Source: Closterium sp. NIES-65
Taxonomy: Eukaryota; Streptophyta; Zygnematophyceae; Desmidiales; Closteriaceae
DNA length: 64,000 nt
Reading direction: 5' to 3'
Assembly (NCBI GenBank): GCA_948144175.1
Contig: CANXME010002425.1
Location: forward strand, 124,001 to 188,000
Both the position numbers and the translations under genes were made by a program. Shown piece by piece: positions 1,359-47,037 of this stretch. Position 1 is the stretch's first letter. Each line of letters opens with the position of its first letter. The notes beneath the pieces are model-generated. The model was not told where the DNA came from. It searched no databases and worked only from the letters and a program-made list of their open reading frames with translations.

Positions 1359-4300
1359 ATGCAACCTAGCGCGGCGCGGCAAGATTCCAAAATTCCCGGA
1401 ATGAGCGGATCGCTATCAGCGCCGGTGCTCGTTCTTGCGCTAATCGGCGCGCTTGCCGTGTTCACCGAGGTCGTGTCGCTCGTGCGCGTCGGCGTATCGC
1501 CGTCCTACGTGTCGTTCTCGTCCGCCGTGGCCGCCGTTCACGGACGCGATGCCGCGTGGACGGAGCGCAGTACGGCTCCGGGAGACGCGGAGAACGACCT
1601 GGAAGGAACGGCGTGGCCTGCGGGTGAGTCGGCTCGCATGTGGAAACGCGATGGACCAATCAATGGGGGCAGGTGAATGCGGTGGGATGTGATGAGAGTA
1701 GGTGGGTGTAGGTGAGATTATGTGGCAAGATGTTGAATTGGCTTTTATTGAGTCTGTTAAGTCTTTCCAGCATGGATAAAGTGAAACTTACTCCAGCCAG
1801 CCAATGAGGGCCAACTGACACGTCAGACTTCATCACTCCTGACCCATCCAACCCACCAGATGCTCCCAACACAGAAGCAGCAACCGAAGCAGCAACCGAA
1901 GAAGCAGAAGTAGCAGCAGGAGGAGGAGGGGAACCTGGAGGAGGGGAAGGGAGCTCGGGTGTTGACTCCCTTCCGCCGCTCTCTCTGCTGCCTCCAGAGT
2001 CACGAGCAGGACTAATGTTCGATGCTCTTCTGAGAGCGCAGTTCCGAGTGCAGCAGGTGCGTTGCGGTTCAGTGCGGTTGAGAGGTACAGTAATCGTTCG
2101 TAGGTGCCTTGTGTTGCTCTCTCTGTTGACCCCGGAGTCACGAGCACTGCTCATGTTCGATCCTCTTCTCAGGGTGCAGTTCCGAGTGCAGCAGGTGCGT
2201 TGCGGTTCAGTGCGGTTGAGAGGTACAGTAATGTAATCGTAGGTGCCTTGTGTTGCTCTCTCTGTTGACCCCGGAGCCACGAGCACTGCTCATGTTCGAT
2301 CCTCTTCTCAGGGCGCAGTTCCGAGTGCAGCAGGTGCGATGCGATGCGGTTCAGTGAACTGTAGTGCAGTGTGGTTGGGTGGTGTGCGGCAGCAGCTGTA
2401 GGTGGCTCGTGTCACTCTCTGCTGCCTCCAGAGTCACGAGCAGGGCTTCTGAGAGCTGTAGGTGTGTTGCGGTTCAGTGCGCTGTAGTGCGGTTGAAAGC
2501 TGCAGTAGTTGTTGCCTCCTTGTGCCACTCACTCTCTTATGCCCCTGGAGAGAATGAGTCACAAGCAGATGTTTGAAGCCTTCCAGGCGTGAGCAGCAGG
2601 CGAGCTACTGGGTGGGTCCCACAGTGCGATTGGTTTGCAAAGGCGTGGTGGAGTGGATAGCATGGCAGCACAGTAAATGAGTCGTTCCTATTCCCCCCTA
2701 CCGCAACCCCCTATAAAAAATGATTACACACACGCATGGACAGCAGGCGAGCTAATGGCTGGGTCCCACAGTGCAATCTCTCTGCAGGGGAGTGATTGAG
2801 AGTATGGCAGGGTAGCAGAGGCGCAGTGCTTGCCTGCTTTCCACTCTTCACTCTCCTTCCTTACCTTGATCGCTCACAGGTGTGGGCAGTGGGTGAACTT
2901 CTGGGCCCAACAGTGCGGTTATTTTGCAAGGGCGTGGTGGAGAGCATGGCAGCAGAGGCGCAGTGGGCTCCTGCCTGCTTTCCTTCCCAGTGATACTGCA
3001 CCAAGCCCTTCCCTTCTCATCCTCTCCCTCCCCCACTCCTTCCTCCTCTCCTCGGGACAGGCATGGCAAGCAGGCGAGCTTCTGGGTCCCACAGTGCGGT
3101 GGTTCCGCAAGGGCGTGGTGGAAAGCATGGCAGCAGAGGTGCTGTGCCTACCTGCCTACTCCTTGCTCTCTCATTCCCCTCCTTGCCTCCTTCACTGCTC
3201 ACAGGCGTGGGCAGCAGGCGAGCTACTTGGCCCAACAGTGCGGTGGTTCCGCAAGGGCGTGGTGGAAAGCATGGCAGCAGAGGCGCTGTGGCTGCCTGCT
3301 GACGTCATTGCTGCTGCTGCTGCTGACGCTGCTATTGGCGCTGCTGATCCCGATGCTGCTGCCAAGGCTGCTGAAGGTATACTTCTCACATTATTGACTT
3401 CTTATCTTAGAAAATATATTCATTTATTTATCAAGTCCAGCCGAAAGTCGTTCATTTAGGTGCTGGTTAGGGTGTTTTTTCTTTCAGCTTCTTCTCTAGC
3501 TTCACCTGAAGAAGGAAGCGGGAATTGGATACATTGAAGTGAGTGTTCTTGATCGGCTTTGGCTGGCTCTGACGGCGAAGTGGCAGGTGCGGGCCAACGA
3601 GTGGGCACTTCGTATTGTGTGTATTCATCTTCTCCTCTCCCCTCTTGCACCCCTGCCTCTTCTCCACTGAGGCAGCAGCGGCAGGGGCCAACCTGGGCGA
3701 CTCACATCCCCTAATTCTCTTGTTTTCCCTTTCCCCACTCCAGAGGCGGCAGCGAGGGAACGAGACAGAGGTTTGTATCCTTTGAAGCGATTGTGCCTGA
3801 GGCTGCTGGCAGCCTGGCACTGACAGCAGAGTGGCAGGAGCGGGCCAACCAGGACGACTCACATCCACCCCTACCCCTCTTCCCTTGCATTGCCCATTCC
3901 AGAGGCGGCGGCAGCAGCAGCGGCGGCGGCGAAAGAAACGAGGAGAGGGTTGGATCCTTTGAAACGGGTGTTCCTGAGACTGCTAGCTCTCACAACGGAG
4001 TGGCAGGTGCGGGCCAACCAGGGGCACGCGGAGACGGGGAAGCATGCCCCGTTTGGCCTCCATATAGTCACACTGGGGGGGTCAATAACGAGGGGATTCA
4101 GCAGCAGAAGCACGCAGTGAGTCAAGGCTTGTGCCTGACGGGGTTGGGTTGCTGCCCGCACCCAGGGGTGTGTGGAGAAGGAGAAGAAGGCTTCCTGTGG
4201 CCCGCATATAGTCACATTGAGTGTCACGTGTAGTAAGATGTCTTTTGAGGCGCCTCAAAAGGAAGGAAAAGGGAAGAAAGCGAAGAACGCTCCCCTTGGT

Positions 4301-7300
4301 CCGCATATCGTCATACTGGGGGTTCAGCAGCTGAAGCATGCATGCAGTGGGTGGCAGGCTTTAGTCATTGGGTTCTGTGGGTTGTGAGAGGGGTGGTTGA
4401 GGGGTGTGTATGGCTTGTGTGGCTGGATGTGTGGCTCATTGTACACCCACCTCATTTCGAGGCTGCTCAAAATAATTGACCACATCTCCTCTTACCCTTG
4501 GCTGTTTGTGCCTCCCCTCCCATCCATCTCCCTGCTTTTTTTTTTTGTTTTTTTTTTTGTCTCTTTCCTCTCCTGCCTCTCTTTCCTCTCCTGCCTCTCT
4601 TTCCTCTCCTGCCTCTCTTTCCTCTCCTGCCTCTCTTTCCTTTCCTGCCTCTCTTTCCTCTCCTGCCTCTCTTTCCTCTCCTGCCTCTCTTTCCTCTCCT
4701 GCCTCTCTCACCTCTCCTCCCCCGGCCGCCTCCCAGAGTGCGCTACCCCTGGCCGGACCTCCTCCTGCCCTTCTCAGTGACAGCCTTACACTTGACCCCT
4801 CTCTCACCATCCTGCATATGTTCCTCCTATCTCCTCTTTCCCGCCATTCCCCCAGAGTGCGCCACCCCTGGCCGGATCTCCTCCTGCCCTTCTCGGTCAC
4901 GGCCTTCCCTCACCTCCGCAACTTCGTCACCAACTCCGCTGTGCGTGCCTGCGGGGCCATCTGCCCCGCCCTCAGCCTCCCATCCTTCCTGGGAGATTCC
5001 CCAGGTGAGCCTTTCTGCTGTTACCACCCTCCTCAACCTCAACCTCTTCGGCTGTCCCTCCACCTCCCACCACAGTGGCCCTGCCAGAGGCTCATGTGAC
5101 CCCTCTCTTTTACAAGAAATTCCGATTCGTGTGCTCCTTCCTGATGGAAAACGTGCGAATCTAGAGAGTGTAGTAAGAGATTAAGTTCGTCGACTTCGAC
5201 GGAACATTGCGTGCAGCTCAGGTAATCTTATAATATGAGCATCTACGCGTTGGAAATGTCTTCATCTCCACTCTTCATAATGATAAAGCGCACTTTCAAC
5301 CAAGATCTAGGCTGATGCAATCGCGATTTGAATGCGATATCATGACAGAATTACTACGAAGCCATGAATTAGATATAAGAATAGCTTTTGCAAGAGTTCA
5401 AATCTAAAAAGTGACGATTTTGACAACAATGAAACATCGACTCAAAGTGCCAAACTAACAACACCAAAGGTGTTTTAGCGAATAGCGAAGGTTTGGTGGT
5501 GGTTGGTGTGTGCGAGTTCAGTTTCAACCCGCAACAAATCTAACAAGCACATTTTGCCCATACTCTTAGCCCACAACCAAGTAAAGCAAAATACCACAAC
5601 CACCTACACAATCATCACTTCCATCTCTCATTTTCCACTCGTATCCCACCCCTAGCCCCCACCACCCCTTCCCTAGATATAGTGATCACAGACTTCAACA
5701 TCAACGTGGGAGAGGCCTAGGACTCCTCTCTGTTGCTACCCCCAATGCTCTCCCCTCTCCCCACACCCATCCCTCTCCTTCCCAATCCTCTCCCTTCCAA
5801 CACCAGGCATAGTAATAACCGAGTTCAATATAAACGTTGGTGAGGCCTGGGACTCCACGCTCCTGCTGCGCCAGCTGGCCTTGTGGCCCTCCCACCCTGC
5901 TCTCCTCAACCTCAACCTCTTCGGCTGCGCCTCCACCTTCTCCCACCACAGCGGCCCTGCCAGAGGCTCTGCCTCCTGCGACCCCATCCCCACGCCCTCC
6001 TCCTCTGACTTTGCTGCTGCAGCTGCTGCTGCTGCTGGCGTGCCCACGATCAGTATGGCCCGTGCGCTCACTCCGTTCTGGCGCCCTGCGTCCGTTCCCC
6101 GGTGTGGGAATATCGACGGGAGCTTTGGGAATGGTTCTGCTGGTGCTGGTGCTGGTGCTGCGGGTGGTGGTGTGGGGAGTGGGATAAGAGATGGAGTGCG
6201 GTCGGCTTGGGTGCGGCTGGTTGCAGGGGCGTGTGAGAGGGAGTGCACGCTTCCCAAGGACAGGTGCCCCCCGTCAGGAGACAAGCCATTCTCCCTTCCG
6301 TGCACTGCCTGTGTGCACGCGTGCTACGCCCGGGAGGGGTGGGGGGTGGTGGGATTCGGCGGGGATGGAGGAGAGGCGGTAGGAGGAGGGGAAGGAGTGG
6401 TGGAAGAACAGCTGGCGAGTCTGGGTGTGAACCGGCTGATAGGATGCTCAGGTCATGAGCTAGGCTCTCTCTACCCACCTGGCCAAACACCTGCCGCCGT
6501 CGCCGATGCTGCTGCTGCCGCTGCCGCCGCTGCCGCCGCCGCCGCTGCCGCCGCTGCTAGTAACTCTGACGTGGGAGACTCAGAGGTGGTCGGGCGGCCG
6601 CTTTTGGAAGTATCTGCGGAGACGGTGCTGGGTGCCGACCGGGTGCACATGGTAGAGTTTGGGCACGAGCTGGCAGCGGCAGTGGTGGTACGGCATCTGA
6701 TGTCCTCTCTGCTGGCACTCACCCCTCAAGACATCCAGCAGTTCCTAGAAGAGGAGCAGCAAAGAGAGCAGGGGCAGCCTGCTCAACAACAGCCGGAGCA
6801 GGCGTGGACACACATGAAGCCGGAGCAAGGGCAGTGCTTCACCACCAATTGGGGGGACTACCGACAGAGGCACCGCTGCCCCAAGCTCAAAGCTATCAGC
6901 GGGCAGGTCTCCTTGAAATCTCGCCAGCCTGGGTGGGTGCTGTACCCGCTCTCGCGCGACAAAGAAGCGTTTATGTCGCACGTCCCCAATGCTACTGTAA
7001 CTTTTGCGATAAATGTAAATTTACGAGCTGGAGGGAGGCTGGCGTTTCTGTTCCTGAAGGCTCAGGACCTCGGGCCTGGGCTCGTGCGTGTAGCGTGGGG
7101 GGGCGGGGGTGGAAAAGGTGGGGAAGGAGGTGGGGAGGGTGGAGAAATTGGGCCAATATTGTTGAATGCAGAGGCGTGGAGGTCACCTACAAGGGTTGTG
7201 GGCGGGCAGGTGCTGCCGGGGATAGTGCCGAGAGGGAGGGTGGAGATTTCAGTGACAGTGGTTCCCGGTGGTGGGAATGGAGCTCCCGAGGGGTTCGGCG

Positions 7301-7353
7301 TAATTGGTGTGTTTGTGTTGTCTGGACTGCTTCCAGATTCCATGTTTTCATAA
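1359..7353 (+). CDS. SGNH/GDSL-like hydrolase with N-terminal membrane anchor (6 exons)
   Basis: Exons I infer: 1359-1623, 1998-2056, 3205-3376, 3903-4116, 4856-5004, 5807-7353. They total 2406 nt (801 aa) and all phases agree across GT-AG introns. Residues about 15-45 form a hydrophobic signal anchor after a short basic lead. SGNH blocks seen: block I LGGSITRG with Ser about 226; a PWPDLLLP segment just after; block III-like GIVITEFNIN at 287-296, with Asn in the usual place; block V DRVH (Asp564, His567) followed by a GHELAA helix. A C-terminal half with a Cys pair and beta-rich segments follows, as in plant and algal SGNH hydrolase-type proteins. Substrate unknown; esterase or polysaccharide O-acyl work in the secretory path is an inference. 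Length is inflated by Ala and Gly runs, such as poly-Ala coded near 6500-6560. A start at Met 15 (1401) is also possible. Introns are full of partial exon copies. Confidence 0.7.
2130..2480 (+). repeat. Donor-side echoes of SGNH exon 2
   Basis: Exon 2 (1998-2056) is copied two to three more times downstream, starting near 2137, 2278 and 2430. The first two keep the coding stretch ending FRVQQ and its GTGCG donor, plus about 80 bases of intron, giving a period near 135-140. The upstream acceptor tract is worn or missing in them. The first copy is the one that fits the reading phase. Confidence 0.75.
2583..3150 (+). repeat. Acceptor-side echoes of SGNH exon 3 (4 copies)
   Basis: Four decayed copies of the first two thirds of exon 3 (the GELLGPTVRWFRKGVVES region) begin near 2590, 2737, 2879 and 3060. 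The intact exon follows at 3205. Later copies are closer to the real exon in sequence and carry pyrimidine tract plus CAG before the coding start. None carries the exon's Ala-rich 3' end or its donor. Confidence 0.85.
3495..3860 (+). repeat. Acceptor-side echoes of SGNH exon 4 (2 copies)
   Basis: Two partial copies of the 5' half of exon 4 lie at about 3500-3605 and 3740-3860. They match the stretch coding for an acidic/Ala-rich lead, a basic turn, LRLLA and TEWQVRANQ. The intact exon follows at 3903. They are out of frame or internally altered, and stop short of the block I part. Confidence 0.75.
4125..4350 (+). repeat. Donor-side echoes of SGNH exon 4 (2 copies)
   Basis: Two copies of the block I end of exon 4 (GPHIVTLGG-like) lie downstream of the exon, near 4165-4235 and 4265-4340. 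Between them sits one copy of the 20-bp palindrome CTTTTGAGGCGCCTCAAAAG, near 4240-4260. Confidence 0.7.
4553..4712. repeat. 18-bp pyrimidine minisatellite
   Basis: About nine tandem copies of an 18-bp C/T-rich unit (CTCTCTTTCCTCTCCTGC) follow two short poly-T runs. They lie in intron 4 of the SGNH gene, just upstream of an exon 5 echo. The tract could act as a long polypyrimidine run near splice acceptors. Confidence 0.85.
4730..5750 (+). repeat. Echoes of SGNH exons 5 and 6
   Basis: Near 4733-4785 there is an acceptor-side copy of exon 5 (coding RVRYPWPDLLLPFS). Exon 5 itself is 4856-5004. An internal copy of exon 6 (coding LLNLNLFGC and HHSGPARG) lies near 5020-5098. An acceptor-side copy of exon 6 (coding IVITDFNINVGEA) lies near 5675-5735. 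The true exon 6 starts at 5807. The stretch 5110-5640 holds no gene I can see; it is more AT-rich than its surroundings and may be an old insertion. Confidence 0.7.
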
Positions 7354-13567: not shown

Positions 13568-13599
13568 CTGAGTTGGGTTAGAAGGCTTTATCCGAGGCC

Positions 13600-16310: not shown

Positions 16311-16315
16311 CTGCC

Positions 16316-31609: not shown

Positions 31610-31818
31610 ATGGACGGCGATGATGGCGTTGCGTGCTGTGGGTGCTTCGGTGCGACGCCCTCGAAGCGCTCGGCTGTGCGCGGGAATGGCGCAGGTCGGT
31701 TATGGCCTGATTGCATGTAGCGAGATCTTTCTCACTAGTAGTGATGCGGCGAGCTCGGCGAGAGCTCTTCGTGGCGTGAGCCATAGTGCTACCGAAGATA
31801 AACCATTCCTGCGTTTCG

Positions 31819-34800: not shown

Positions 34801-37800
34801 CCAGGCAAAGGCGAGGCCAGGCAAAGGCGAGGCCAGGCAAAGGCGAGGCCAGGCAAAGGCGAGGCCAGGCAAAGGCGAGGCCAGGCAAAGGCGAGGCCAG
34901 GCAAAGGCGAGGCCAGGCAAAGGCGAGGCCAGGCAAAGGCGAGGCCAGGCAAAGGCGAGGCCAGGCAAAGGCGAGGCCAGGCAAAGGCGAGGCCAGGCAA
35001 AGGCGAGGCCAGGCAAAGGCGAGGCCAGGCAAAGGCGAGGCCAGGCAAAGGAGTCATTGAGTCGAAAGGTGATCACATATAATCTATCCCCCCACCCACC
35101 CACCCTACTGCCCATTTCACGTGTCCCCTTCAGTCCCTAAGGTTGTATCCCTCGCTAGTGTCAACATACTGTTGGTGCCAAGCGGGAAATTCGCTTGACA
35201 CCAGGTGGAGCTGCGCTCATGCGCGGCTCCAGGTTGGTGCCAATGTTGCCAACATTGTGCCAACTTCCCGAGCCATCCCAAGCTGACACCAGGAGGTTTA
35301 GTCCTCCATGCGTTTTCCGAGTTTGTGTCTTGACACTAACCACTCTTGACACTAGCCAGGGATACGATCTAAATACCCCAATCAGGTGCACCTGTTATCC
35401 CTAGATACTGCATGTGAGGTGGCAATGGTGCACTTCTCTCCCCCCATTCTGCGTCCTTCACCCCACAGGTGCAGATCCTCCTCATGCTGGGAATCCTTAA
35501 ACCACCCCAACCTGCTGCAGCTGCTTCTCCTACTCATCCCCACACCGTTTCGCCCCCCCCTACCATGCGTTCTTCACTGCACACGCGGAGATCCTAGTGC
35601 TGGGCAATCTGCGACACCCCAACCTGGTGCAGCTGTTGGGGTACTGCATGGAGGACTGCAGTGCTGCGCTCCTCTCCCTCACACCCCCATTTCTATTCCT
35701 TTCCTCTCCAACACGCATACCCATTCCTCTCCCTCTCCCCCCACCACAGGCGGAGATCCTAGTGCTGGGCGATCTGAGACACCCCAACCTGGTGCAGCTG
35801 TTGGGGTACTGCATGGAGGACAGCCGGGCGATTCTGGTGTATGAGCTGGTGGAGCGAGGCGACCTGCACCACTGGCTGCACCCCAACAGTGAGTGAGAGG
35901 ACGAAGAGGGCGGTGGGAGGGATTGCATATCTTCTAAGACGATGCATGTCTTCAGCACCCGGGAATAAAAAAAAGATAAGGAAAAAAAAAAACATAGAGA
36001 GCAAAATTGCATGTGCCAGCCGGGAATCGAACCCGGGTCTGCACCGAGCTCATGGCAGGGTGCTATTCTACCACTAGACCACTGGCACGCTTTTGGATGC
36101 ATGATGACGTTATGGTATGATCGTACAACATGCACTGGCTCTTTGACGTTGCATCTGAGAGACTTCTTGGGTGGTGTGTGCACGTCCTTCCCCTTGGGTT
36201 AGGAATTGCACGTCCGACCAATTCCTAACTACCTCTTTTCGTCCCCTTCCCCGCCCTCCCCCACCCTTGTCAATCCTCCCCACCACACTCACCACTGCCC
36301 CAGACCTCTCTCCGGACAGCCCGTGCCTGACGTGGGAGCAGCCCTCGAAAGTGGCAGGTGGGTATGAGCGAGGCCTTGCGTTTGGCGTATCCGATGTCAA
36401 CAAATTTCCCCTTCCTTGTTTCCCCTCCACCTCAACTTTCCTGGACAGCCCGTGCCTGACATGGGAACAGCGAGCGCAGGTGCCAGAGAGTGTGGTGGAG
36501 GGCATGGCACATCACATTTGCTTCTAGCCAAATCCAACTGCCATCCTTCCCCAACCCCTCTCCTCCCACCCATCTTATCAATCCCTTCTTCGTCACCCAA
36601 GACCTCTCCCCGGACAGCCCGTGCCTGACATGGGAGCAGCGCGTGCACGTGGCAGTGGGCATGGCGGAGGGCATGGCATATCTGCACGGGCAGAACATCA
36701 TTCACCGCGACTTCAAGTCCCATAATGTCATGCTGGACCATGTAAGTTGTAGGGGGGTGTAGGTGAGTTTTGAAGGGAAACCACCCGTGAAATTGGCTAA
36801 GCTTTTCAGGTCCATACTTTGTCTCTGGGTGATGTAAGTGGGAGGAAAAGTTGCTGGGGAGAACGCAGTGTGCGGTACCGTTTGTGGGATGGTAAATACC
36901 TTACTACGAGTAGTGTGCCTTTATATGTGCGGGGGGTCTCTACATGGGCATTCATAGGGCTACATTGTAATGGGCATCTCTTGAGTCAACTGCAATGACA
37001 CATCGTTACTTTTGAGTCGACTTAAAATTGTCCACCAGCTTTACCACCAGCCTTAGCATGGCAGGCAACATGGGGTCTGAAGGAAACTTTTGAGGCGCCT
37101 CAAAAGGCAACATGGGGTCTGAAGGAAACTTTTGAGGCGCCTCAAAAGGCAACATGGGGTCTGAAGGAAACTTTTGAGGCGCCTCAAAAGGCAACATGGG
37201 GTCTGAAGGAAACTTTTGAGGCGCCTCAAAAGGCAACATGGGGTCTGAAGGAAACTTTTGAGGCGCCTCAAAAGGCAACATGGGGTCTGAAGGAAACTTT
37301 TGAGGCGCCTCAAAAGGCAACATGGGGTCTGAAGGAAACTGAGACTCAGCATCTGCTGCACAGCTTCCGCCCTTTCCCTCCCTTCATATCTAATTTGGCA
37401 GGAGTTGAAAGCGAAGGTGGCGGATTTCGGCATGGCCACATAAATAGCTTAAATTCCACCTTAATCACCCCCTCCCTCCCCCCCCCCGCCCCCCCCCCGC
37501 CCCCGCCCCCTCCTCCCATCTCCCCTCCCATATCTATCTTGGCAGGAATTAAGGGCAAAGGTAACCGATTTTGGCATGGCTACACGGGGACCGGAGGAGG
37601 GGAAGACGCACGTTTCGACTCGCATCATGGGCACCCTGGGGTACCTCGACCCTGACTACATCTACACAGGTGGGGAGGGATTCAGTGCGGTGCAGTGCGG
37701 TGCAGATGGATTAAGATGGATTGTGGGGTAGTGAGCGGCAAGACGCACGTGTCAACTCGCATCATGGGCACCCTACTTCGACCCTGACTATATCGATACA

Positions 37801-40044
37801 GGTGTGGAGGCTTGTAACGAGGATATGACTTGTGCGTGTGGGGTATGGAGGGGAGGAGGGCGTGAGGCACGTATCGACTCGCATCATGGGTACCCTGGGC
37901 TAGGGTACCTTGACCCTGATTATTTCGGCACAGGTGGGGAGGCCTGTAAATTGTTTGTGGTCCTTGTTGTTCGGGTATCACCACTACACACAACCGCCCC
38001 TTCCTCCCCCACTTCCTCTCCACTGCACACAACCGCTCTTCCCTCCCGCACTTCCCCTCCACTACCCGCAACTGCCTCTTTCCTCCCTGAATCCCCATCC
38101 CCCCTTCCTCGTCCCCTCTCCCACCTCTCCCTCTTCTCCCTTCGTCTCCCCGTCCCCTCACGTGCATCAACCCACTCATCCTCCCCCACCACCCCCAGGT
38201 CACCTCACCCCCCTGAGCGATGTGTTCTCCCTGGGTGTGGTTCTGCTCGACCTGCTCACCGGTTGAGGTGACTTGACTCTAGAGGCACTTCACCCCTCCT
38301 CCCCCCCCCCCCACCCCACTCAGGTCACCTCACCCCCCTGAGCGATGTCTTCTCCCTCAGGGTATTGTTCTGCTCACTGTACCCCTCCTCTCCCCTCCTC
38401 TCCCCTTCTTGTGTTCTTGTGCCTCTCCTCCGCGAGTCACCCCCCTATCCCCTCTTCCCCACCCCCACGTCACCTCACCCCGCTGAGCGATGTCTTCTCT
38501 CTGGGCGTGGTTCTCCTCGAGCTGCTCACCTGCTCCCGCTCCCCCTTTTTCTCACCCCCTCCTGTGCGTCACCGCCCCTCCAGGCCACCTCACCCTGCTG
38601 AGCGATGTCTTCTCTCTGGGCGTGGTTCTCCTCGAGCTGCTCACCTGCTCCCGCTCCCCCTTTTTCTCACCCCCTCCTGTGCGTCACCGTCCCTCCAGGC
38701 CACCTCACCCCGCTGAGCGATGTCTTCTCTCTGGGCGTGGTTCTCCTCGAGCTGCTCACCTGCTCCCGCTCCCCCTTTTTCTCACCCTCTCCTGTGCGTC
38801 ACCGCCCCTCCAGGCCACCTCACCCCGCTGAGCGATGTCTTCTCTCTGGGCGTGGTTCTCCTCGAGCTGCTCACCTGCTCCCGCTCCCCCTTTTTCTCAC
38901 CCCCTCCTGTGCGTCACCGCCCCTCCAGGCCACCTCACCCCGCTGAGCGATGTCTTCTCTCTGGGCGTGGTTCTCCTCGAGCTGCTCACCTGCTCCCGCT
39001 CCCCCTTTTTCTCACCCCCTCCTGTGCGTCACCGCCCCTCCAGGCCACCTCACCCCGCTGAGCGATGTCTTCTCTCTGGGCGTGGTTCTCCTCGAGCTGC
39101 TCACCTGCTCCCGCTCCCCCTTTTTCTCACCCTCTCCTGTGCGTCACCGCCCCTCCAGGCCACCTCACCCCCGCTGAGCGATGTCTTCTCTCTGGGCGTC
39201 GTGCTGCTCGAGCTGCTCACCGGCCAGTTCCCCACCACTGCTGCCACCCACAACCGCCTCTTCTTCCCCTCCACTACGCACACCCATCCCATCCCCCCCC
39301 CTCTCTCCTGGCCACCTCACCCCCCTAATCAATGTCTTCTCCCTGGGCGTTGTTCTCCTCAAGTCGCTCACCGCTCCCTGCATGCTTCACCCCCTCAACC
39401 CCTCCCCACTCTCAGGTCACCTCACCCTGCTCAGCAATGTCTTCTATCTGGGCGTAGTGCTTCTCACCCACTCCCACTTCCCCTCCTTGTCACCCTCTCC
39501 CATGCATCGCCAACCACCAGGTCACCTCACCCCGCTCAGCGATGTCTTCTCTCTGGGCGTGGTCCTCCTCGAGCTGCTCACCGGCCGATCCCCTGCCACC
39601 ACCGCCACACACAACCGCCTCTTCCCCTGGATCCACAAGCAGCTGGCGCGAGGTAGAAAAGGGGGGGGAGGGGGAGACTCAGCATCAGCAGCAGCGGCAG
39701 CAGCAGAAGCGGGAGGAGCGGGTAATGAAGGGCAACAGCAACAGCAGCAGGGGCAGCAGCAGGAGGGGAGGAAGGCGGATGGGTTTCATATAAGCCAAGT
39801 GGTGGATCCACGGCTGAAGGGGCAGTTCTCAGCGGGTGCAGCGAAGAAGCTGCTGCTGGTGGCGCTGCAATGCAGTCAAGAGGAGCCCAGCAAGCGACCC
39901 GACATGAACCATGTTGTGGAGAGGTTAAGGGAGATCGCTGCCTCTGGGGTGGGGAAAGGAGGGGCGCGAAGGGTGGAAGGAGGAGGAGCAGGAGTGCAAG
40001 GGATGGCAGGCGGAGTGGCAGTAGTGGCAGCGGTAGGAGTTTAA
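31610..40044 (+). CDS. Receptor-like cytoplasmic kinase (6 exons)
   Basis: Exons I infer: 31610-31694, 33688-33920, 35750-35888, 36602-36741, 37546-37669, 39521-40044. They total 1245 nt (414 aa), every phase closing. The N-terminus has a Cys cluster, CCGCF at 9-13, a likely palmitoyl anchor; no signal peptide or membrane helix is seen, so it should be cytoplasmic at the membrane. Kinase features: FSYRELQ (43-49), P-loop LGKGSFG (61-67), Lys92 in VAVKVL, Glu108, hinge [15 protein letters not shown] (187-194), DFG (207-209), [26 protein letters not shown], and [12 protein letters not shown] near the end. This is the RLK/Pelle Ser/Thr kinase pattern. A Ser/Ala/Gln/Gly-rich insert sits between subdomains IX and XI, and the tail is Gly/Val-rich. 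Introns carry dozens of exon-edge echoes, an antisense tRNA gene and palindrome arrays. Confidence 0.85.
31821..31850. repeat. Poly-T run
   Basis: About 29 T residues in intron 1 of the kinase gene. On the minus strand it would be a poly-A run; I see no element attached to it. Confidence 0.9.
32370..33625 (+). repeat. Acceptor-side echoes of kinase exon 2
   Basis: At least five decayed copies of the exon 2 start (coding [20 protein letters not shown] and ASLQLGKG) fill intron 1 at about 32372, 32588, 33005, 33160 and 33525, before the true exon at 33688. Several keep a pyrimidine tract and an AG at the right place. A 12-bp CTCTTCTCCCTC satellite (32695-32825) lies among them. A 53-bp array (33250-33515, five units in register) repeats only CTGCAGCTGGGGAAGGCAAG plus a pyrimidine tract, that is, the LQLGKG codons plus intron-like filler. 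Confidence 0.85.
33960..34712 (+). repeat. Donor-side echoes of kinase exon 2 (5 copies)
   Basis: Five copies of the exon 2 end lie downstream of it, at about 33985-34041, 34120-34171, 34248-34303, 34415-34464 and 34662-34710. They code [17 protein letters not shown] and keep the G|GTGAG donor. Spacing is 130-250 bases, with purine-rich filler. No copy carries the exon's 5' part. Confidence 0.88.
34713..35050. repeat. 16-bp minisatellite (AGGCCAGGCAAAGGCG)
   Basis: About 21 near-perfect tandem copies of a 16-bp unit lie in intron 2 of the kinase gene. They begin within a few bases of the last exon 2 donor echo. Because 16 is not a multiple of three, all frames are open and give long false open frames on both strands. 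Confidence 0.95.
35145..35365. mobile_element. Small MITE-like inverted-repeat element
   Basis: GTATCCCTCGCTAGTGTCAA at 35145-35164 pairs with TTGACACTAGCCAGGGATAC at 35346-35365 (19 of 20). The 221-bp segment lies in intron 2 of the kinase gene and codes for nothing. No clear target duplication; family not assigned. Confidence 0.6.
35460..35690 (+). repeat. Acceptor-side echoes of kinase exon 3 (2 copies)
   Basis: Copies near 35466-35530 and 35583-35665 match the 5' part of exon 3 ([23 protein letters not shown]). The second is nearly perfect, then diverges into intron-like DNA. The true exon starts at 35750 and runs on to the donor at 35888. Confidence 0.85.
36013..36088 (-). tRNA. tRNA-Gly (GCC) with a possible 6-nt intron
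   Basis: The minus strand folds as a complete tRNA. The acceptor stem is GTGCCAG/CTGGCAC (7 of 7), and the D arm is GTCTAGTGGTAGAAT. The anticodon stem is GCACC/GGTGC, and the T arm is CCGGG-TTCGATT-CCCGG. The A box TGGTCTAGTGG and B box GGTTCGATTCC are present. The anticodon is GCC in CTGCCA. The anticodon loop has 13 bases instead of 7; the extra TGAGCT lies right after position 37, the standard eukaryotic tRNA intron site. A TTTT Pol III stop follows within about 10 bases. It sits antisense in intron 3 of the kinase gene. A decayed or mis-sized tRNA copy is the alternative. Confidence 0.85.
36300..36520 (+). repeat. Acceptor-side echoes of kinase exon 4 (2 copies)
   Basis: Copies of the exon 4 start ([11 protein letters not shown]) lie near 36303-36360 and 36433-36515. 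The true exon starts at 36602. Both keep pyrimidine-rich DNA before them and stop before the catalytic HRD segment. Confidence 0.82.
37065..37338. repeat. Alternating array: seven 22-bp repeats and six 20-bp palindromes
   Basis: Seven copies of GCAACATGGGGTCTGAAGGAAA alternate with six copies of the perfect palindrome CTTTTGAGGCGCCTCAAAAG. The period is 42 bp and the total is exactly 274 bp (7x22 + 6x20). It lies in intron 4 of the kinase gene. A diverged SalI-core palindrome (near 37012-37028) lies just upstream. The layout is what repeated insertion of a palindrome, each time with duplication of the same target, or tandem amplification of one such insertion, would give. Confidence 0.97.
37390..37445 (+). 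repeat. Acceptor-side echo of kinase exon 5
   Basis: One copy of the exon 5 start: GGCAG then the codons [13 protein letters not shown], ending in a stop. The true exon starts at 37546. The intervening DNA is C/T-rich with long C runs. Confidence 0.85.
37735..37940 (+). repeat. Donor-side echoes of kinase exon 5 (2 copies)
   Basis: Copies of the exon 5 end ([12 protein letters not shown]...DPDY, then ACAG|GTG donor) lie at about 37738-37803 and 37862-37935, downstream of the true donor at 37670. Both retain the donor. Confidence 0.85.
38195..39460 (+). repeat. Acceptor-side echoes of kinase exon 6, with a 115-bp x6 array
   Basis: Eleven or so copies of the exon 6 start ([21 protein letters not shown]) precede the true exon at 39521. 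Six sit in a near-perfect 115-bp tandem array (units start their ATGTCTTCT at 38490, 38605, 38720, 38835, 38950 and 39065). Diverged single copies lie near 38200, 38325, 39165, 39305 and 39415. Each has C/T-rich DNA and CAGG(G/T)CACCTCACC at the acceptor. None has a good donor, so use of one as an acceptor would run into intron. Confidence 0.92.
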
Positions 40045-40059
40045 TTATAGGTAACGGGC

Positions 40060-40520
40060 AGTTTTCGGCTGGAAGAGGCTGCTGCTGGTGGCGCTGCAGT
40101 GCAGCCAGGAGGAGCTGAGCAAGTGGCCTGAGATGAACCGTTTGGTGCAGAGACTGAGGGAGATTGCTGCTGCAGGTGGGGCGCAAAGAGTGGAAGGGGG
40201 AGGAACAGAAGGCGCAGGAGTGGAAGGGGTGGCAGTGGCAGGGGTAGGAGTGTAGATGTAGGAAACGGGCAGTATACAGCGACTGCAGCGAAGGGTTGCT
40301 GCTGGTGGCTCTGCAGTGCAGCCAAGAGGAGCCGAGAAGTGATTGAGGGAGATCGCTGCTGCTGGGGGAGGAGCAGGATTGCAAAGGGTAGGAGGGGAAG
40401 AAGCAGGAGGGTAAGAAATAGGAGGACGAGTAGGGCAAGGGATGGCAGCGGAGGGGGAGGGGGTAGTGCCTGGGGCAGGGAAAAGGATGGCGGGGGTAGG
40501 AGTGTAGGTGTAGAAACTAG
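40060..40520 (+). repeat. 3'-side echoes of kinase exon 6 (2 copies)
   Basis: After the stop codon at 40044 come two decayed copies of the exon's 3' coding end ([14 protein letters not shown]...LREIAA, then the Gly/Val-rich tail), at about 40065-40250 and 40290-40510. They may form part of the 3' UTR. Confidence 0.8.
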
Positions 40521-40567
40521 CTTTGGCTACCACAAGGAGGTCAGCATCAGCCCTCCCATGCGGAGGT

Positions 40568-40735
40568 GAGGTGGCACTGCAGTCACGTGGCACTGCAGTC
40601 ACGTGGCACTGCAGTCACGTGGCACTGCAGTCACGTGACACTGCAGTCACGTGGCACTGCATTCACGTGGCACTGCAGTCACATGGCACTGCAGTCACAT
40701 GGCACTGTAGTCACGTGGCACTGCAGTCAAATGGC
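40568..40735. repeat. 16-bp minisatellite (CACGTGGCACTGCAGT)
   Basis: About ten tandem copies of a 16-bp unit lie downstream of the kinase gene. Each unit contains CACGTG and CTGCAG palindromes. Confidence 0.93.
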
Positions 40736-41146
40736 ATGAACCAATCAGCATTGGGCATGTCAAAAAATCACATACAGCACGGCAGAACCATTTATACATC
40801 ATGTCAAACCCACCCATACGGCCCGGCACAGCAGCATGATGGTAGGGCATGGCACCATTGTAAATCAGGGGGGAATCGGCACAGGATGGCATTGGGAAAG
40901 GCGGGGGGAGAGCCGGGCCTTGTAGGACGGGATGGGGAGGTTTATAGGGCGGTTGAGTGGCATGGAACCAACAGCCAAGGGGAGGAGTTTGGGGGAAGGG
41001 AGAGGGAGGGGCTCCTTAGTGGGTGATACGGTCATTTTTTCAGTGGGTAGTACCAGTACATTTCCCACTTATCCGCATCATGCTCTGCGGTTGCTTTTGT
41101 GCCCGTACGTAGGGTAGGCCATGGAAGCAGTCGTGGTAGTTGGAAG
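40736..41146. other. Intergenic, nothing recognised
   Basis: Non-coding DNA between the minisatellite and the hAT-like MITE. No motif recognised. Confidence 0.5.
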
Positions 41147-41891: not shown

Positions 41892-41899
41892 GTTGGAAG

Positions 41900-42526
41900 A
41901 GAAGTTGTAGAGTGCAGGTGGAATTATGAATTCGGTAGTTTTTTTAATAGATTTGTCTTGTGCATCAGAGCGTGAGACACTAGCAGCTTACAGCAAGCAA
42001 CGTTCAAGGACTTGTGCATTGATACATTGCGAATGCAATCTGCCTTTATACCAGTAACATTGGAAGAACCTTGATAGCACTATTTTTGTTATCAACTTAT
42101 TGCCATGAGTGGCAGACACTAACTGCAGCTTAGCACTGTATTTCCGGGCCCTGAACGAATATGGTGGATTGTGTAGGTGGAATAATTAGCATCAATGTAC
42201 CAGATTGCCCTTCTACTTATATCGCATGGCATCGGATTCCATCGGTGTATTGTTATCTTGCTTTCAAGAAAGCGGCGAGTCTTCTCTTAGGGCGTGGAAC
42301 ATCCTCGAAACAGCTACTGTAGATCGATGCGAATCAACGCATCTGCTGAAATGCGACACCGGCCGAGCTCCATCCAAGCTGCTAGTAGAAATAAAAGCGG
42401 TTTCACTTGACTACTGGCGATGCACGCGCGTATCGAATAGCGACGCTGCTTTCACGTGATATCAGGCGCTTCTTTTGCCGCGCTCTCTTCGTGGGCTTTC
42501 CGATTTCGAAGATTTGAAAGCGCTTC
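41900..42526. other. Upstream region of the RAR1 gene
   Basis: No gene recognised. It is somewhat AT-rich at first and ends near a decayed copy of the RAR1 start region. The RAR1 promoter probably lies here. Confidence 0.4.
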
Positions 42527-42570
42527 GGCCATGTCGACCGCGATAAACGCGCGTATCGACTACTGGTGAC
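42520..42570 (+). repeat. Echo of the RAR1 exon 1 start
   Basis: The stretch GGCCATGTCGACCGCGATAA near 42524 and its lead match the true start region at 42661 (GGCCATGTCGCCCGCGATAA) before diverging. It contains an ATG that would not lead into the CHORD domain. Confidence 0.75.
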
Positions 42571-42665
42571 GCTGCTTCAGTGTGATCTCACGGAGCTTCT
42601 TTCTAACGATCCCAACATTCATTCTCATCCCCATAATTTCGATCACGGTTGAAAGAGCTTAGGCC

Positions 42666-45600
42666 ATGTCGCCCGCGATAAACGCGGAGGGAAGGAAGCG
42701 GTGCGAGAGGATCGGGTGTGACGTGTATTTCACGGACGCAGAAAACGACGACACGAGCTGCTGCTACCACCCAGGGGTAAATACACTCACACGCGCTTTG
42801 ACTTATGAGGTGATATACCTTCTTAACCAGGGTTAAAGCAGTCGCGCGTGCCTCTTGTCCCGTCTCAAGAGGCTCTGACGGCCTTGTACGCGAGTTTCTG
42901 TGTCGTGCTGCTGAATTCACCCTGCGTTATGAGTGATCTGCCCCGTCGCTTGTCTCGGCGCGCACCACTTTCCCCGTCGCATGCTCATCGCATCACATGC
43001 GCCGTCGCATGCCCATCGCATCACATGCCCATCGCATCACATGCCCATCGCATCGCATGCCCATCGCATCGCATGCCCATCGCATCGCATGCCCATCGCA
43101 TCGCATGCCCATCGCATCGTATGCCCATCGCATCACATGTCCATCGCATCACATGGGCCATCGCATCGCATGCCCATCGCATCGCATGCCCATCGCATCG
43201 CATGCCCATCGCATCGCATGCCCATCGCATCGCATGCCCATCGCATCACATGCCCATCGCATCACATGCCCATCGCATCACATGCTCCGTCGCAACACCC
43301 ATCGCACATGCACCGTTCTTGAATCCTGCACCATTTGCCTGATTCACCTCATCATTTCTCTCCAATCTAGGTGACTTTGAGTCGACTCAAAAGTTACCTC
43401 ATGCACCATTCCTGGATCCTGCACCATTTGCCTATTCACCTCATCGTTTCTATCCAGTCTAGGTGACTTTGGAGTCGACTAAATCTGCACCGTTCCAGTC
43501 ACCTCAAGCACCGTTCCTGGATCCTGCACCGTTTGCCTAATCACCTCATTATTTTTCTCCAATCTTCCTTCTCCCTTCTTCATGCTCTACTCATTCCACC
43601 CCATGCCCCATCGCATCCCCCATCGTACCACATGCCCCATTCTTCTACGCATGTAATCCACCTTTTCTCTATCCGTTCTTCCTCCCCCCCTGCCGACGCC
43701 GCATGGGGTGTATGGGTTGAAATTCATGGCGTCACGGCTGGGTTGGCATTCATGGTTTGATCGGCCCACAACAACACATCCTGCTGACATCGGCCCACAA
43801 CAACACATCCTGTTGACACCAACTCTCGCATCAGCCGGTATGCTCTTCAGTGGATGCACGGATGAGTGGATGATGCGAGCTGAAGAGATGGGCGGTAGAT
43901 GAAGAGAACTAAGCGAGTGAAGAGGTGAAGAGAGGAAGAGATGGACGGATGATGAGAGATGGCGAGACAAAGAGATGAAGTATATCGAGATGCTTTTATT
44001 AAGAAAATCGACGAGATCAGGAGATCGGCAGATGGTCGATGGCAGATGGGCAAATGAGCTGGTGGCATATCTCTAGATTGAGGGATACTAGTTCCCCCTC
44101 GTCTCTCTTGACCAATTCTTCTTTCCTTCCCATTCCACGACGGCACGAAGGAGTGGACGTGCTGTTAACAGCGAAGCCTACAGTTCTGACTCACTCTCTG
44201 CTCCCGCCCCCTCTCCCCCCTCCGCTCCCACCTCTCAGCCAGTATTCCACGACGGCACAAGGAGTGGTTGTACTGCCACAATCAGCAAAGCCTGAGCGTC
44301 TGAGTCACGCCTTCCACACCCACTCCTCCTCCCACCTCTCAGCCAGTATTCCACGACGGCACCAAGGAGTGGAAGTGCTGCCAGCAGCAAAGCCTGCAGT
44401 TCTGAGTCACTCTCTGCTCCCTCTCCCTCTCCTCCCACACCCCTTTCTCAGCCAATTTTCCACGACGGCACCAAGGAGTGGATGTGCTGCCACAAGCGAA
44501 GCCACGATTTCTCGCTATTCCTCTCCATTCCAGGGTAACGCATCGCATGCAAGCAATCGAATTCACACCAGGGTAATGCATGCGATTCATTCCAGCATAC
44601 CTTGATACCTGTGCGTGATTTTGTCCTTTCTGCATGCCTGCCCTGCCGCCCTCTTCTCTGCCTACGCGTGTCTCTTTTCATTTTTGCTTTAGAGTAACTA
44701 TTTGACTGTGCTTGGTATATATTCCCTGTTGATTCACGCAGCATCTTTGTTCCCAACCTTCTGCTCGTGCCTTGCCCCTTCCCTCTGGGTTCCTTTACAG
44801 CTGCAAGCGAGGCAAGCACACCACTGAGAAACCCAAACCAATCACCCCTGCAGCACCAGCACCAGCACCACCGACGCCATCCCCTGTTCGAGGAGCAGGA
44901 GCGACAGCAGAGGCAGCAACCGCGACAACAGCACCATCAGCAGCAGCAGCAGCAGCAGAAGCATCATCGGTGCAGCAGCAAGCAGCATGCAATCGGTGCT
45001 CTCAGGGCTTCTTCTGTTCTGATCACAGTGCACCGCAAGGTGAGTTACATGGGCATGTGTTGTGCTGGTGCATGCGATCATTATCTTGGTATGCTAGGTG
45101 ACTTGTGTTTCCCTCATAAGACAGTTACTTCAAGAAAATCATTCAATTCTTCTAGCAACGTGGAGTTGCAGCAAACTTCATGCACAATGTGGGAAGTGTT
45201 GGGGAATGTGGATATGTGCGGTTGTAGGGAGTTTTTACCTTCAACAGAGGAGGTTTTAGAGACATTTTCAGATGTGCAGTAGTTGATAACAATGCACCTT
45301 TTTGATGACACCCAACACGTTCTACCTTAACTCTTATTCTCGGTGTTTGATGATTTACGGGCTGTAAGTTTGAAACAACCATTCTTGTAGCTAAGCACGA
45401 ATTATGGTTGTTATGAACTTACAGCTCGTAGCTCATCGAACATCGAAAAGAAAAGGTAGGGTAGAGATTGTCGGGTGTTATCGAGGAGGTGCACCGTCAC
45501 CAACTGCTGCACATCCAAAATTATCCCTAGAACCTCCTATGTTAGATGTTCGATTGCCAGTCGATTCTATTGGCTGTAGAATCCATTCAAATTCGATTGC

Positions 45601-47037
45601 CACTCGATTCTATTAGCTGTTTGATACCTCAACAACTTCACTCCCTCTCTCCCCTCCCTACACTACACCCTGCAGCTTCATCTGCTGCTGCTCCCCCCCA
45701 GCCCTCCCGACCGCCGTCGTGGGACATCAATGTGGAGCGCACGTGCAGCAACAAGGGGTGTGGCGCCAAGTACCGGGAGATTGACAACAGCGATGGCGCC
45801 TGCAAGCACCACCCAGGGCCTGCTGTTTTCCGCGACAGAAAGCGAGGGGTGCGTTCAGGGTTGTGGGGGGTATTTGAAGTACAGGGTTTAAGAGGGCGTA
45901 TTGTGCAGCAACAAGGGGTGTGGCGCCAAGTACCGGGAGATTGACAACAGCGATGGCGCATGCAAGCACCTCCTGGGACCCGCTGTTGACTTTTGAGTCG
46001 ACTCAAAAGTCATCTGGGACCCGCTGTTTTCCACGACAGAAAGTGAGGGGTGTGTTGAGGGTGGCGGGGTGTGTTGAGGTTGGGGGGTGTGTGTTGAGGT
46101 TGGGGGGGGTGTGTTGAGGTTGGGGGGGGTGTGTTGAGGTTGGGGGGTGTGTTGAGGTTGGGGGGGTGTGTTGAGGGTGGTGGCGCGAGTTGAGGGTGCA
46201 GGGGTAAGTGCATTTTGAAGGGGTGAGTCCGTTCAGTGAAGGGAGGGGTGACCTTGAACAGGAGGCAAGTGAGGTGCGAGTGTGCGAGGATATGTTTGTT
46301 GCGCTGCATGCCTTTGTAAGTGAGGTGTAAGCACAATACTCGGACAAGTTGTGACACTTGGAAAAGAGATAAGCAATGGGTTGGTCACATCATCAAGTGC
46401 AGTAAGCACATAAATTGGAGTGTGCGAGTGGATTGCTGGTAAGTAGCCTTAGTCACCCTTCCTCGTCTGCTCATGCTCATGCCCATGCTCTCACCCACCA
46501 CTCCTTTCCCCACCTCTGCACCTGTTCGCTTTTTCCCAATGGCAATGCTGCAGAGTAGCTGTGAGTAATTTATAGTGAGTTCCTTGCCGTTCCTTCTGTG
46601 CCAATCCTGGTGCTTACACCCATCATCGTGCTTCCACCCCTTCATTCCCCCCCGTCCCCTCTCCCTCCATCCATTTCTTCTCCAGTGGCAATGCTTCGGA
46701 GTATGTGTGAATGATTTTGATGAGTACCTTTCTGTTTCCTTTCTCCTCTGCCCATCCCGGTGCTCACACCCATCATCATGCTTCCACTCCTCCTACCCGT
46801 CCACCAGTCTCTTCTTTTCCAGTGGCAATGCTGCGGAGTATTTGTGAATGATTTTGATGAGTTCATTGCCGTTCCTTCGTTCACAAGCCACCTCCCCCAC
46901 CTCCCCTCCACCCCCTCTCCTTCCCCCACCCGTGTCTTCTTTTCCAGTGGCAATGCTGCGGCGTATTTGTGAACGATTTTGACGAGTTCATTGCCGTGCT
47001 GCCATGTGCTACTGGCTGGCACTCTGACGAGGTGTAG
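42666..47037 (+). CDS. RAR1: RAR1-type CHORD protein (5 exons)
   Basis: Exons I infer: 42666-42776, 44452-44534, 44801-45039, 45676-45848, 46948-47037. They total 696 nt (231 aa), all phases closing; land-plant RAR1 is of similar size. CHORD-I (about aa 13-76) shows CERIGCDVYFTD, CCYHPG, FHDGTKEWMCC, HKRSHDF and CKRGKHTTEKP. The plant-specific Cys/His motif CNRCSQGFFCSDH is at 128-140. CHORD-II (168-225) shows CSNKGCGAKY, ACKHHPGPAVF, RKRGWQCC, FVNDFDEF and PCATGWHS. The linkers are Ala/Pro-rich. RAR1 is a zinc-binding HSP90/SGT1 co-chaperone that stabilises NLR immune receptors in land plants; its role in an alga is not settled. No CS domain is seen, as expected for plants. Introns hold exon echoes, a minisatellite, a foldback element and palindromes. 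Confidence 0.92.
42985..43295. repeat. 16-bp minisatellite (ATGCCCATCGCATCGC)
   Basis: About 18-20 tandem copies of a 16-bp unit lie in intron 1 of RAR1, with ATCAC/ATCGC variants. The unit carries GCATGC-type palindromes. It gives long false frames rich in His, Pro, Ser and Met. Confidence 0.93.
43300..43570. repeat. Three direct repeats separated by two palindromes
   Basis: Three copies of a 60-65 bp unit (GCACC.TTCCTGGATCCTGC ... CTCCAATCT) start near 43308, 43402 and 43505. Between copies 1 and 2 lies AGGTGACTTTGAGTCGACTC plus AAAAGTTACCT, a near-perfect 31-bp palindrome. Between copies 2 and 3 lies a worn version of the same. This is the layout of the 37065 array with a longer direct repeat. 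Confidence 0.88.
44130..44420 (+). repeat. Acceptor-side echoes of RAR1 exon 2 (3 copies)
   Basis: Copies of the exon 2 start (FHDGTKEWxCC) lie near 44135, 44240 and 44340, before the true exon at 44452. Copies 2 and 3 retain CTCTCAG|CC acceptors and could be spliced in phase, but they lose the SHDFSLF part and end in stops or intron. Confidence 0.9.
45236..45556. mobile_element. Foldback (long inverted repeat) element in RAR1 intron 3
   Basis: Two arms of about 145 bases, left about 45240-45386 and right about 45403-45553, pair with roughly three quarters identity. A loop of only about 16 bases lies between them. Matching blocks include GGGCTGTAAGTT / AACTTACAGCTC and GATGTGCAGTAGTTG / CAACTGCTGCACATC. 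It codes for nothing. In the pre-mRNA it would form a very long hairpin. Confidence 0.75.
45893..46050 (+). repeat. Donor-side echo of RAR1 exon 4, carrying a palindrome insertion
   Basis: The exon 4 end (CSNKGCGAKYREIDNSDGACKH onwards to the GAGGGG donor) is repeated downstream of the true exon. Inside the copy lies the palindrome GACTTTTGAGTCGACTC plus AAAAGTC. The 15-bp stretch CTGGGACCCGCTGTT occurs on both sides of it but only once in the true exon (diverged there). This is a clear target-site duplication. Confidence 0.93.
46050..46185. repeat. G/T-rich 19-bp minisatellite
   Basis: About six to seven tandem copies of GGGGTGTGTTGAGGTTG-like units lie in RAR1 intron 4, directly after the exon 4 echo donor. 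The unit seems to come from that donor's own flank (AGGGGTGTGTTGAGG). Confidence 0.9.
46535..46870 (+). repeat. Acceptor-side echoes of RAR1 exon 5 (3 copies)
   Basis: Copies of the exon 5 start (TTTCCAG|TGGCAATGCTGCGG, coding WQCCGVFVNDFDEF) lie near 46540, 46680 and 46818, before the true exon at 46948. All but the first keep a good acceptor. Each then runs into filler (GTTCCTT...) instead of the final PCATGWHSDEV and stop. Confidence 0.9.

Follow-up and report, generated by a model that had tools for sequence, protein, structure and literature searches.

How introns come to be filled with decayed copies of the edges of their own flanking exons, and why each copy lies on one predictable side of its exon, is the question raised by three genes (SGNH, kinase, and RAR1) in a 64-kb stretch of the alga Closterium sp. 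NIES-65 (assembly GCA_948144175.1, contig CANXME010002425.1, positions 124,001 to 188,000). This single stretch, here called the window, is the scope of the whole analysis, and all coordinates refer to it. The copies, referred to below as echoes, occur at 15–16 of the 28 splice edges of the three genes and account for about 6,284 of their 14,317 intron bases, which bears out the initial annotation of the window in its description of such echoes. In the reading that we consider highly probable, repeated tandem duplication across exon edges has acted as a one-way ratchet of intron growth.

Copies of Exon Edges and the Side on Which They Lie

The gene models, all on the plus strand, comprise 6 exons for SGNH, 6 for the kinase, and 5 for RAR1, and thus contain 14 introns and 28 splice edges:

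1359..7353, plus strand: SGNH host gene, exons 1359-1623, 1860-2056, 3205-3376, 3903-4116, 4856-5004, and 5807-7353; open frame with stop; five joins matched by protein P0121
31610..40044, plus strand: kinase host gene, exons 31610-31694, 33688-33920, 35750-35888, 36602-36741, 37546-37669, and 39521-40044; open frame; PF07714 in the last exon
42666..47037, plus strand: RAR1 (CHORD) host gene, exons 42666-42776, 44452-44534, 44801-45039, 45676-45848, and 46948-47037; PF04968; open frame with stop; relatives P0001-P0005

For each edge, the first 40 nt (acceptor) or the last 40 nt (donor) of the exon, without any intron bases, were aligned to the flanking introns, and a score of at least 18 was taken as a match. 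With this query, 10 of the 14 acceptor edges had matches in the upstream intron (31 copies) and 5 of the 14 donor edges had matches in the downstream intron (11 copies), so that copies were found at 15 of the 28 splice edges, or at 16 if the acceptor of SGNH exon 4 is included. The latter family is visible with windows placed further inside the exon and escaped the edge query because the exon begins with low-complexity codons. No match was obtained on the opposite side, neither in 11 tests of acceptor edges against the downstream intron nor in 11 tests of donor edges against the upstream intron. The strict side rule that had been proposed for these genes is therefore upheld, with all 31 acceptor copies upstream, all 11 donor copies downstream, and none in the 22 wrong-side tests.

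The controls agree with this picture. Reversed and reverse-complemented introns gave no matches, and exon edges aligned to nonadjacent introns of the window gave none in 342 tests over 351 kb at the same threshold, a comparison of the kind suggested with the original claim; at a laxer score of 16, three matches appeared in these 342 tests, all of them with acceptor queries. When windows were slid along the exons (outer flanks excluded; a single reversed-control match in the entire scan), upstream matches fell from 10/14 at the 5′ edge to 4/36 at 101–150 nt and 0/178 beyond 150 nt, and downstream matches fell from 12/42 at 1–30 nt from the 3′ edge to 3/45 at 61–100 nt and 0/56 beyond, i.e. the copies come solely from the exon parts near an edge. 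The edge-echo pattern is confirmed as genuine and orderly. Its extent had been put at roughly 20 families over 14 exons with more than 45 copies; the pattern stands at the smaller counts of 15–16 families and 42 copies plus weaker ones. The echoes next to splice edges are as follows, where the kinase labels "exon 1" to "exon 5" refer to the exons at 33688-33920, 35750-35888, 36602-36741, 37546-37669, and 39521-40044, respectively:

2057..2460, plus strand: SGNH exon 2 donor-side echoes, copy edges 2194 and 2333; weaker piece 2415-2447
2475..3204, plus strand: SGNH exon 3 acceptor-side echoes, copy edges 2587, 2734, 2880, and 3061
3517..3853, plus strand: SGNH exon 4 acceptor-side echoes, two copies, found only by windows inside the exon
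4159..4346, plus strand: SGNH exon 4 donor-side echoes
4718..4855, plus strand: SGNH exon 5 acceptor-side echo, copy edge 4737
5029..5093, plus strand: SGNH exon 6 interior segment, echoed on the expected side and lacking a splice site; 91% over 68 nt with 5902-5969
5677..5806, plus strand: SGNH exon 6 acceptor-side echo
32545..33687, plus strand: kinase exon 1 acceptor-side echoes, edges 32593, 33003, 33154, and 33521; 53-bp subarray 33250-33521
33921..34712, plus strand: kinase exon 1 donor-side echoes, edges 34040, 34168, 34300, 34462, and 34707
35440..35749, plus strand: kinase exon 2 acceptor-side echoes, edge 35586; weaker copy 35440-35523
36298..36601, plus strand: kinase exon 3 acceptor-side echoes, 36304 and 36431
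37402..37545, plus strand: kinase exon 4 acceptor-side echo
37670..37950, plus strand: kinase exon 4 donor-side echoes, 37801 and 37933
38187..39520, plus strand: kinase exon 5 acceptor-side array, 11 copies including a 115-bp × 6.5 array at 38471-39221
44127..44451, plus strand: RAR1 exon 2 acceptor-side echoes, 44127, 44239, and 44343
45849..46075, plus strand: RAR1 exon 4 donor-side echo, exon part at 45903-45987 and donor edge at 46049; split by a short palindrome
46492..46947, plus strand: RAR1 exon 5 acceptor-side echoes, 46540, 46686, and 46823

Anatomy of the Copies

All echoes are in direct orientation and most are arranged head-to-tail, with a spacing of 104–407 bp (median 134.5 bp) that falls within 100–185 bp in 37 of the 42 copies. 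Each carries 36–146 nt of exon sequence (median 96.5 nt), with a median identity of about 84% to the exon, together with a part of the adjoining intron. In 36 of the 42 copies the intron and exon parts taken together are at least as long as the spacing, which is what head-to-tail duplication predicts, by a measure that is lenient on the intron side, where polypyrimidine tracts align to each other. These features sustain the earlier proposal of tandem duplication across splice edges. Each of the 42 copies, which were sought and found in introns, corresponds to a single splice edge of an exon already present, and the modeled intron ends lie outside the copies. That the copies include the splice edge and leave out the far end of the exon, as had also been noted, is mostly correct; the statement fails for two RAR1 exon 2 copies, which match 80 of 83 exon bases and nearly include the exon end (the sole copies to cover at least 95% of an exon), and for the piece at 5029-5093 that lacks a splice site. 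With each copy counted at its spacing, up to a maximum of 200 bp, the intron bases that are not in echo units divide into 1,722 in other arrays and 6,311 left over, the remainder including the SGNH exon 4 acceptor copies.

Two other modes of origin were considered and rejected: reverse transcription, as the copies contain intron sequence, and inverted template copying, as there are no reverse-complement matches.

Proposed Intron Growth by Duplication across Exon Edges

In the proposed ratchet, tandem duplications, mostly of about 100–185 bp, would fall across the edges of coding exons. If a segment spanning an acceptor were duplicated, only its second copy would be joined to the rest of the exon, and the first would have to become intron; duplication of a donor edge would yield the mirror image. 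Duplications that split the interior of an exon or double an entire exon would alter the protein and would presumably be purged by selection. Each accepted event would thus leave a longer intron, one intact outer edge, and one more decaying copy, which would hold the polypyrimidine tract, the AG, and the opening codons of the exon if an acceptor was duplicated, and its closing codons with the GT if a donor was. Longer arrays would arise when copies already residing in the intron were duplicated again, while splicing would stay with the outermost site, in keeping with exon definition. From the sequence we infer the selection against other events, the choice of sites at the RNA level, exon definition, the duplication process at the DNA level, and ancestral introns of about 120 bp.

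In this model the side rule results from tandem duplication under the requirement that the coding sequence be preserved, and no special process is required. In a simulation, random tandem duplications were accepted only if each exon survived once with its splice flanks, starting from six ancestral intron lengths, and no wrong-side pieces were obtained at any of the six; the coding filter is built in by design, so that the result shows sufficiency and not that selection acted. The rule, for which the initial annotation knew of no named process acting genome-wide, thus need not be treated as a puzzle of its own. With units of 100–170 bp and ancestral introns of 120 bp, the simulation hit 17.5 of 28 edges and produced 0.7 pure-intron events of 44.

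A stronger argument for the side rule than the simulation is provided by echoes at coding ends that have no splice site. Two of the six outer ends are echoed:

40053..40454, plus strand: kinase C-terminal coding end, two echoes 3′ of the stop codon, one with 84.0% identity over 200 aligned nt (score 106.5, reversed control 26) and one with 81.2% over 202 aligned nt (score 84, reversed control 32.5)
42465..42551, plus strand: RAR1 5′ flank with the start codon and the initial codons, echoed upstream of the real start at 42666; 77.0% identity over 87 nt to 42592-42686 (score 35.5, reversed control 12.5)

Since the kinase stop and the RAR1 start are echoed as well, the echoes are not confined to splice sites, and their initial description as a splice-edge phenomenon was too narrow. 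The other four outer ends score 10–14.5 against reversed controls of 10.5–18.5, none reaching 18, and two of the four slightly exceed their own control (14.5 vs 10.5 and 12.5 vs 11.5). The proportion of echoed outer ends (2/6) does not differ significantly from that of echoed splice edges (16/28; p = 0.39).

Points That Weigh on the Proposed Ratchet, and Possible Steering of Duplication

Besides the filter built into the simulation and the lenient measure of intron-side extension, a number of observations weigh against the ratchet. In 6 of the 42 copies the intron and exon parts together fall short of the spacing. Acceptor families outnumber donor families, 11/14 against 5/14 (Fisher p = 0.054; 10 against 5 without the SGNH exon 4 case, p = 0.128), and the simulated acceptor:donor events at the six lengths (65:73, 57:86, 64:64, 56:51, 41:33, and 14:21) show no acceptor excess. 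The intron DNA left outside copies and short arrays amounts to 119–1038 bp per intron, more than the best-fit ancestral intron of about 120 bp, and a simulation with 300-bp introns leads one to expect 18.2 pure-intron events of 44, more than are observed. Direct tandem copies were found in 656 of 1,433 intron windows (56 in the reversed control) and in 2 of 396 windows from four flanks, the flank labels being approximate, so that the process may not be uniform. To these points can be added two that concern the splice signals, namely that GT is kept in all 10 independent donor copies, a small sample, and that database proteins P0121, P0122, P0130, and P0003 use echo segments as exons.

Some of these observations are what one would expect if duplications were steered. 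That a splice-edge ratchet operates genome-wide in Closterium, with duplications of about nucleosome size directed to edges during transcription or splicing and the inner copies ignored through exon definition, we consider unlikely. The reading that steering to exon edges or to transcribed DNA is exerted by chromatin, transcription, or cotranscriptional splicing, e.g. through a unit the size of a nucleosome or R-loops that form where exons begin, is to be regarded as quite unlikely, even if it would accommodate the clustering of 37 of the 42 unit sizes at 100–185 bp, the contrast between introns and the four flanks, the excess of acceptor over donor families (11 vs 5), and the small number of pure-intron families relative to the 18.2 events expected with 300-bp ancestral introns. 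Exon length and the 40-nt detection window, however, also set limits to the size range. The exon side of a copy has a counterpart that changes slowly under selection, so that edge copies stay recognizable for longer, whereas the intron part alone would reveal no more than 7 of the 15 families, with all six that have a single copy being missed; the shortage of pure-intron events is therefore partly a matter of ascertainment. In 8 of the 14 introns there are residual windows that have a direct copy; by eye, those of RAR1 introns 1 and 3 were taken for pure-intron duplications and most of the others for echoes that the edge query had missed.

It also speaks against steering that outer coding ends show no clear deficit of echoes relative to splice edges, as the comparison given above indicates, and that two noncoding stretches other than introns are rich in direct copies, one with 69 of 262 windows and the other with 120 of 583. 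Stretches labeled as transposable elements, the labels again being approximate, contain direct copies in 276 of 3,129 windows, and the stretch at 57900-62000 with Plavaka hits contains them in 56 of 411 (13 in the reversed control), these being window counts and not exon-edge tests. The initial statement that the long interspersed nuclear element (LINE) of the window is free of such copies agrees with the absence of a nearby direct copy in all of its 481 windows. The window counts speak clearly neither for steering nor against it, and we retain the ratchet as the best reading.

Decay of the Copies and Their Splice Signals

The copies retain many of the signals that they have inherited, and it had been suggested that they could act as decoy splice sites. 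An AG lies within 3 nt of the projected edge in 24 of 31 echo acceptors and a GT in all 11 echo donors, and on small weight matrices (13 training sites each) 14 of these 24 acceptors and 4 of the 11 donors score at least as high as their own functional site. If the modeled sites are those used, the outermost copy is therefore not picked out by the strength of its site; exon definition, which favors the site closest to the opposite exon end, would account for the choice.

Signals of such strength, the preservation of GT in 10/10 independent donor copies, and the use of echo segments as exons in the four proteins from other strains named above would be in line with echoes being working elements, that is, decoy or alternative splice sites selected to regulate splicing; moreover, the gene prediction described in the passages drawn on from PMC10407611 made use of RNA-seq, so RNA support for such protein models is possible. 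Selection on the sites is not what their decay suggests, however. Of 27 independent acceptor copies, 19 retain the AG, whose two positions are matched in 23 and 21 of the 27, like their neighbors, and use of the retained echo sites would lead to a frame shift or a stop in 31 of 35 cases (4 of 35 would not; 7 copies lack a site). Differences between 36 independent copies and their exons amount to 0.142, 0.116, and 0.232 per first, second, and third codon position; they are not confined to third positions, and the third-position excess is what one would expect where a constrained exon faces a free copy. Of the indels, 116 of 131 are not multiples of three. Judged by these figures, the copies decay like neutral DNA, without coding constraint. 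It is accordingly very unlikely that the echoes are working elements, and a decoy function was rejected on the evidence of the sequence, the echo AG being no better kept than its neighbors and 31 of 35 sites being predicted to break the frame.

Support for the Gene Models and Sharing among Strains

The joined SGNH, kinase, and RAR1 sequences are each a multiple of three with one stop, which is terminal, and all 14 introns are GT..AG introns. At 12 of the 14 exon joins, at least 12 of 16 residues are matched by at least one Closterium protein from another strain; the two unmatched are the first join of the kinase (9/16 residues) and the first of RAR1 (best 8/16). Protein P0121 of strain Yama58-4 matches all five SGNH joins (12–16 of 16 residues), P0123 of the same strain matches four of five kinase joins, and P0001 of strain Naga37s-1 three of four RAR1 joins. 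Other database models disagree, P0122 at four of five joins and P0130 at five of five, in part because they have echo or intron sequence inside them. The Closterium proteins led to corrections of the SGNH exon 2 start, the SGNH exon 4 end, and the first kinase exon, and in a search with the joined RAR1 protein Closterium proteins come first. A Pfam scan of the SGNH last-exon frame returned no families; the name SGNH is the label of the initial annotation, and a GGSITRG stretch in the gene is presumably an SGNH-like motif. The mean length of the 14 introns is 1,023 bp. For four Closterium strains, mean intron lengths of 485–554 bp and 5.0–5.7 introns per gene have been given in PMC10407611, where NIES-65 is among the strains of the Closterium peracerosum-strigosum-littorale complex; the examined passages of that paper make no mention of exon edges.

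Database proteins placed on the window by tblastn indicate that echoes are shared. Residues 94–153 of the NIES-64 SGNH protein align to 2796-2975 at 88%, residues 85–134 of NIES-64 RAR1 to 44105-44257 at 83%, and residues 129–192 of the latter to 44344-44535 at 95%, which covers an echo unit and the real exon 2; residues 304–329 of the Naga37s-1 kinase align to 35469-35546 at 96%. In a fused SGNH-kinase model of Yama58-4, the complete kinase exon 1 is preceded by further fragments of this exon that do not correspond one-to-one to the copies in the window. Some echoes thus probably predate the split of these strains. In a windowed alignment of 15 database proteins, strong internal repeats were found in P0121, P0122, and P0130 and a weaker one in P0003; P0124 was also high, in a low-complexity C-terminal tail, so it is the tblastn placement that identifies echoes, which a repeat scan alone cannot do. 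A self-BLASTP of 16 database proteins returned no repeats, even where these are plain, and is not relied on. According to passages of PMC10407611, gene prediction for NIES-64 and its sister strains used RNA-seq hints and assembled transcripts, and transcriptome reads are available for NIES-64, NIES-65, NIES-4550, and NIES-4552.

That chance, low-complexity matching, or assembly error should have produced the echoes is a negligible prospect: polypyrimidine tracts do align by composition, and the assembled genome is described in PMC10407611 as rich in duplication, but exon-only queries found nothing in reversed or reverse-complemented introns or in the 342 mismatched tests. Assembly stutter would not leave exon parts as diverged as these, at a median identity of about 84%, and proteins of NIES-64, Naga37s-1, and Yama58-4 show copies at the same edges.

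Young Arrays and Other Features of the Introns

Near-identical arrays are present in the kinase introns: 16 bp × 20.9 (99%) at 34718-35051, 42 bp × 6.6 (100%) at 37063-37340, and 53 bp × 5.1 (100%) at 33250-33521. In RAR1 intron 1, a 16-bp × 20 array at 42977-43294 is read as coding in the NIES-65 proteins P0105 and P0106; the first 103 residues of P0106 are read letter for letter from the window's array region, and P0105 reads the array over 324 nt as compared to 356 in the window, 32 nt or two units shorter. The young arrays show that tandem expansion continues in these introns, to which this difference in length may be added. Part of kinase exon 1 is similar to the 53-bp unit.

Several further elements were noted along the three genes. 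Short, perfect palindromes occur at 45974-46035, 4243, 37088-37315, 43377, and 48646, with raw counts of seven for TTTTGAGGCGCCTCAAAA (six in one array) and three for TTGAGTCGACTCAA. The palindrome at 45991 lies inside a RAR1 echo and has a 15-bp direct repeat, CTGGGACCCGCTGTT, on its flanks, resembling the target-site duplication of a tiny insertion. RAR1 intron 3 contains a foldback-like inverted repeat of 140 nt at 45243-45543, 76% complementary, with 21 nt between the arms, and kinase intron 3 a candidate tRNA-His (anticodon atg, an unusual label) on the minus strand at 36012-36088, called by ARAGORN with bacterial settings. SGNH and the kinase lie about 24 kb apart in the window (7354-31609) and are fused in the Yama58-4 model P0121; long open frames between them look, by reading alone, like retroelement polyproteins, and such insertions may have separated the neighbors.

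Significance and Comparison with Known Systems

If the ratchet is correct, it provides a testable route from short to long introns, by tandem duplication across exon edges that is hidden by splicing, in which the slowly changing exon would serve as a reference exposing duplications that are otherwise hard to recognize. The copies amount to splice sites in competition at known distances, a naturally occurring series that bears directly on exon versus intron definition in a relative of the land plants. There is also a concern for annotation, in that database Closterium proteins contain echo-derived peptides. Neither exon-edge echoes in introns nor intron growth by splice-edge duplication is reported among the literature matches listed, as far as their titles and abstract openings go, and we know of no described case of this extent.

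The closest known process is intron gain by tandem genomic duplication, in which, as set out in passages of PMC3443670, duplication of an exonic segment with AGGT gives a new intron with new splice sites; a case in potato concerns an RNA-dependent RNA polymerase (RdRp) gene (part of PMC4974935). Common to this process and to the one proposed here are a duplication within a gene, duplicated exon sequence that the spliceosome hides, and a protein that can stay unchanged. They differ in that here an existing edge is duplicated and an existing intron grows, with no new intron or functional site. The proteins of relatives are continuous across 12 of the 14 joins, which, being protein data, is uninformative on the presence of introns in their DNA.

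Tandem exon duplication, which the portion of PMC9013439 drawn on here describes as giving whole-exon copies and links to mutually exclusive exon choice, is similar in that tandem copies of exon sequence adjoin the original. The echoes, in contrast, carry one edge with a median of 96.5 nt of exon, and decay. Whole-exon copying as in tandem or mutually exclusive exons is not the pattern found, and the open frame is not kept, as the 31 of 35 frame-breaking sites indicate.

Intronic minisatellites, finally, are head-to-tail arrays in introns, some of whose units are near-identical and recent. The echoes resemble them in their head-to-tail arrangement, e.g. in the 115-bp × 6.5 array at 38471-39221, and differ from them in that the units include a part of the neighboring exon, usually with its splice signal, and are for the most part old and diverged.

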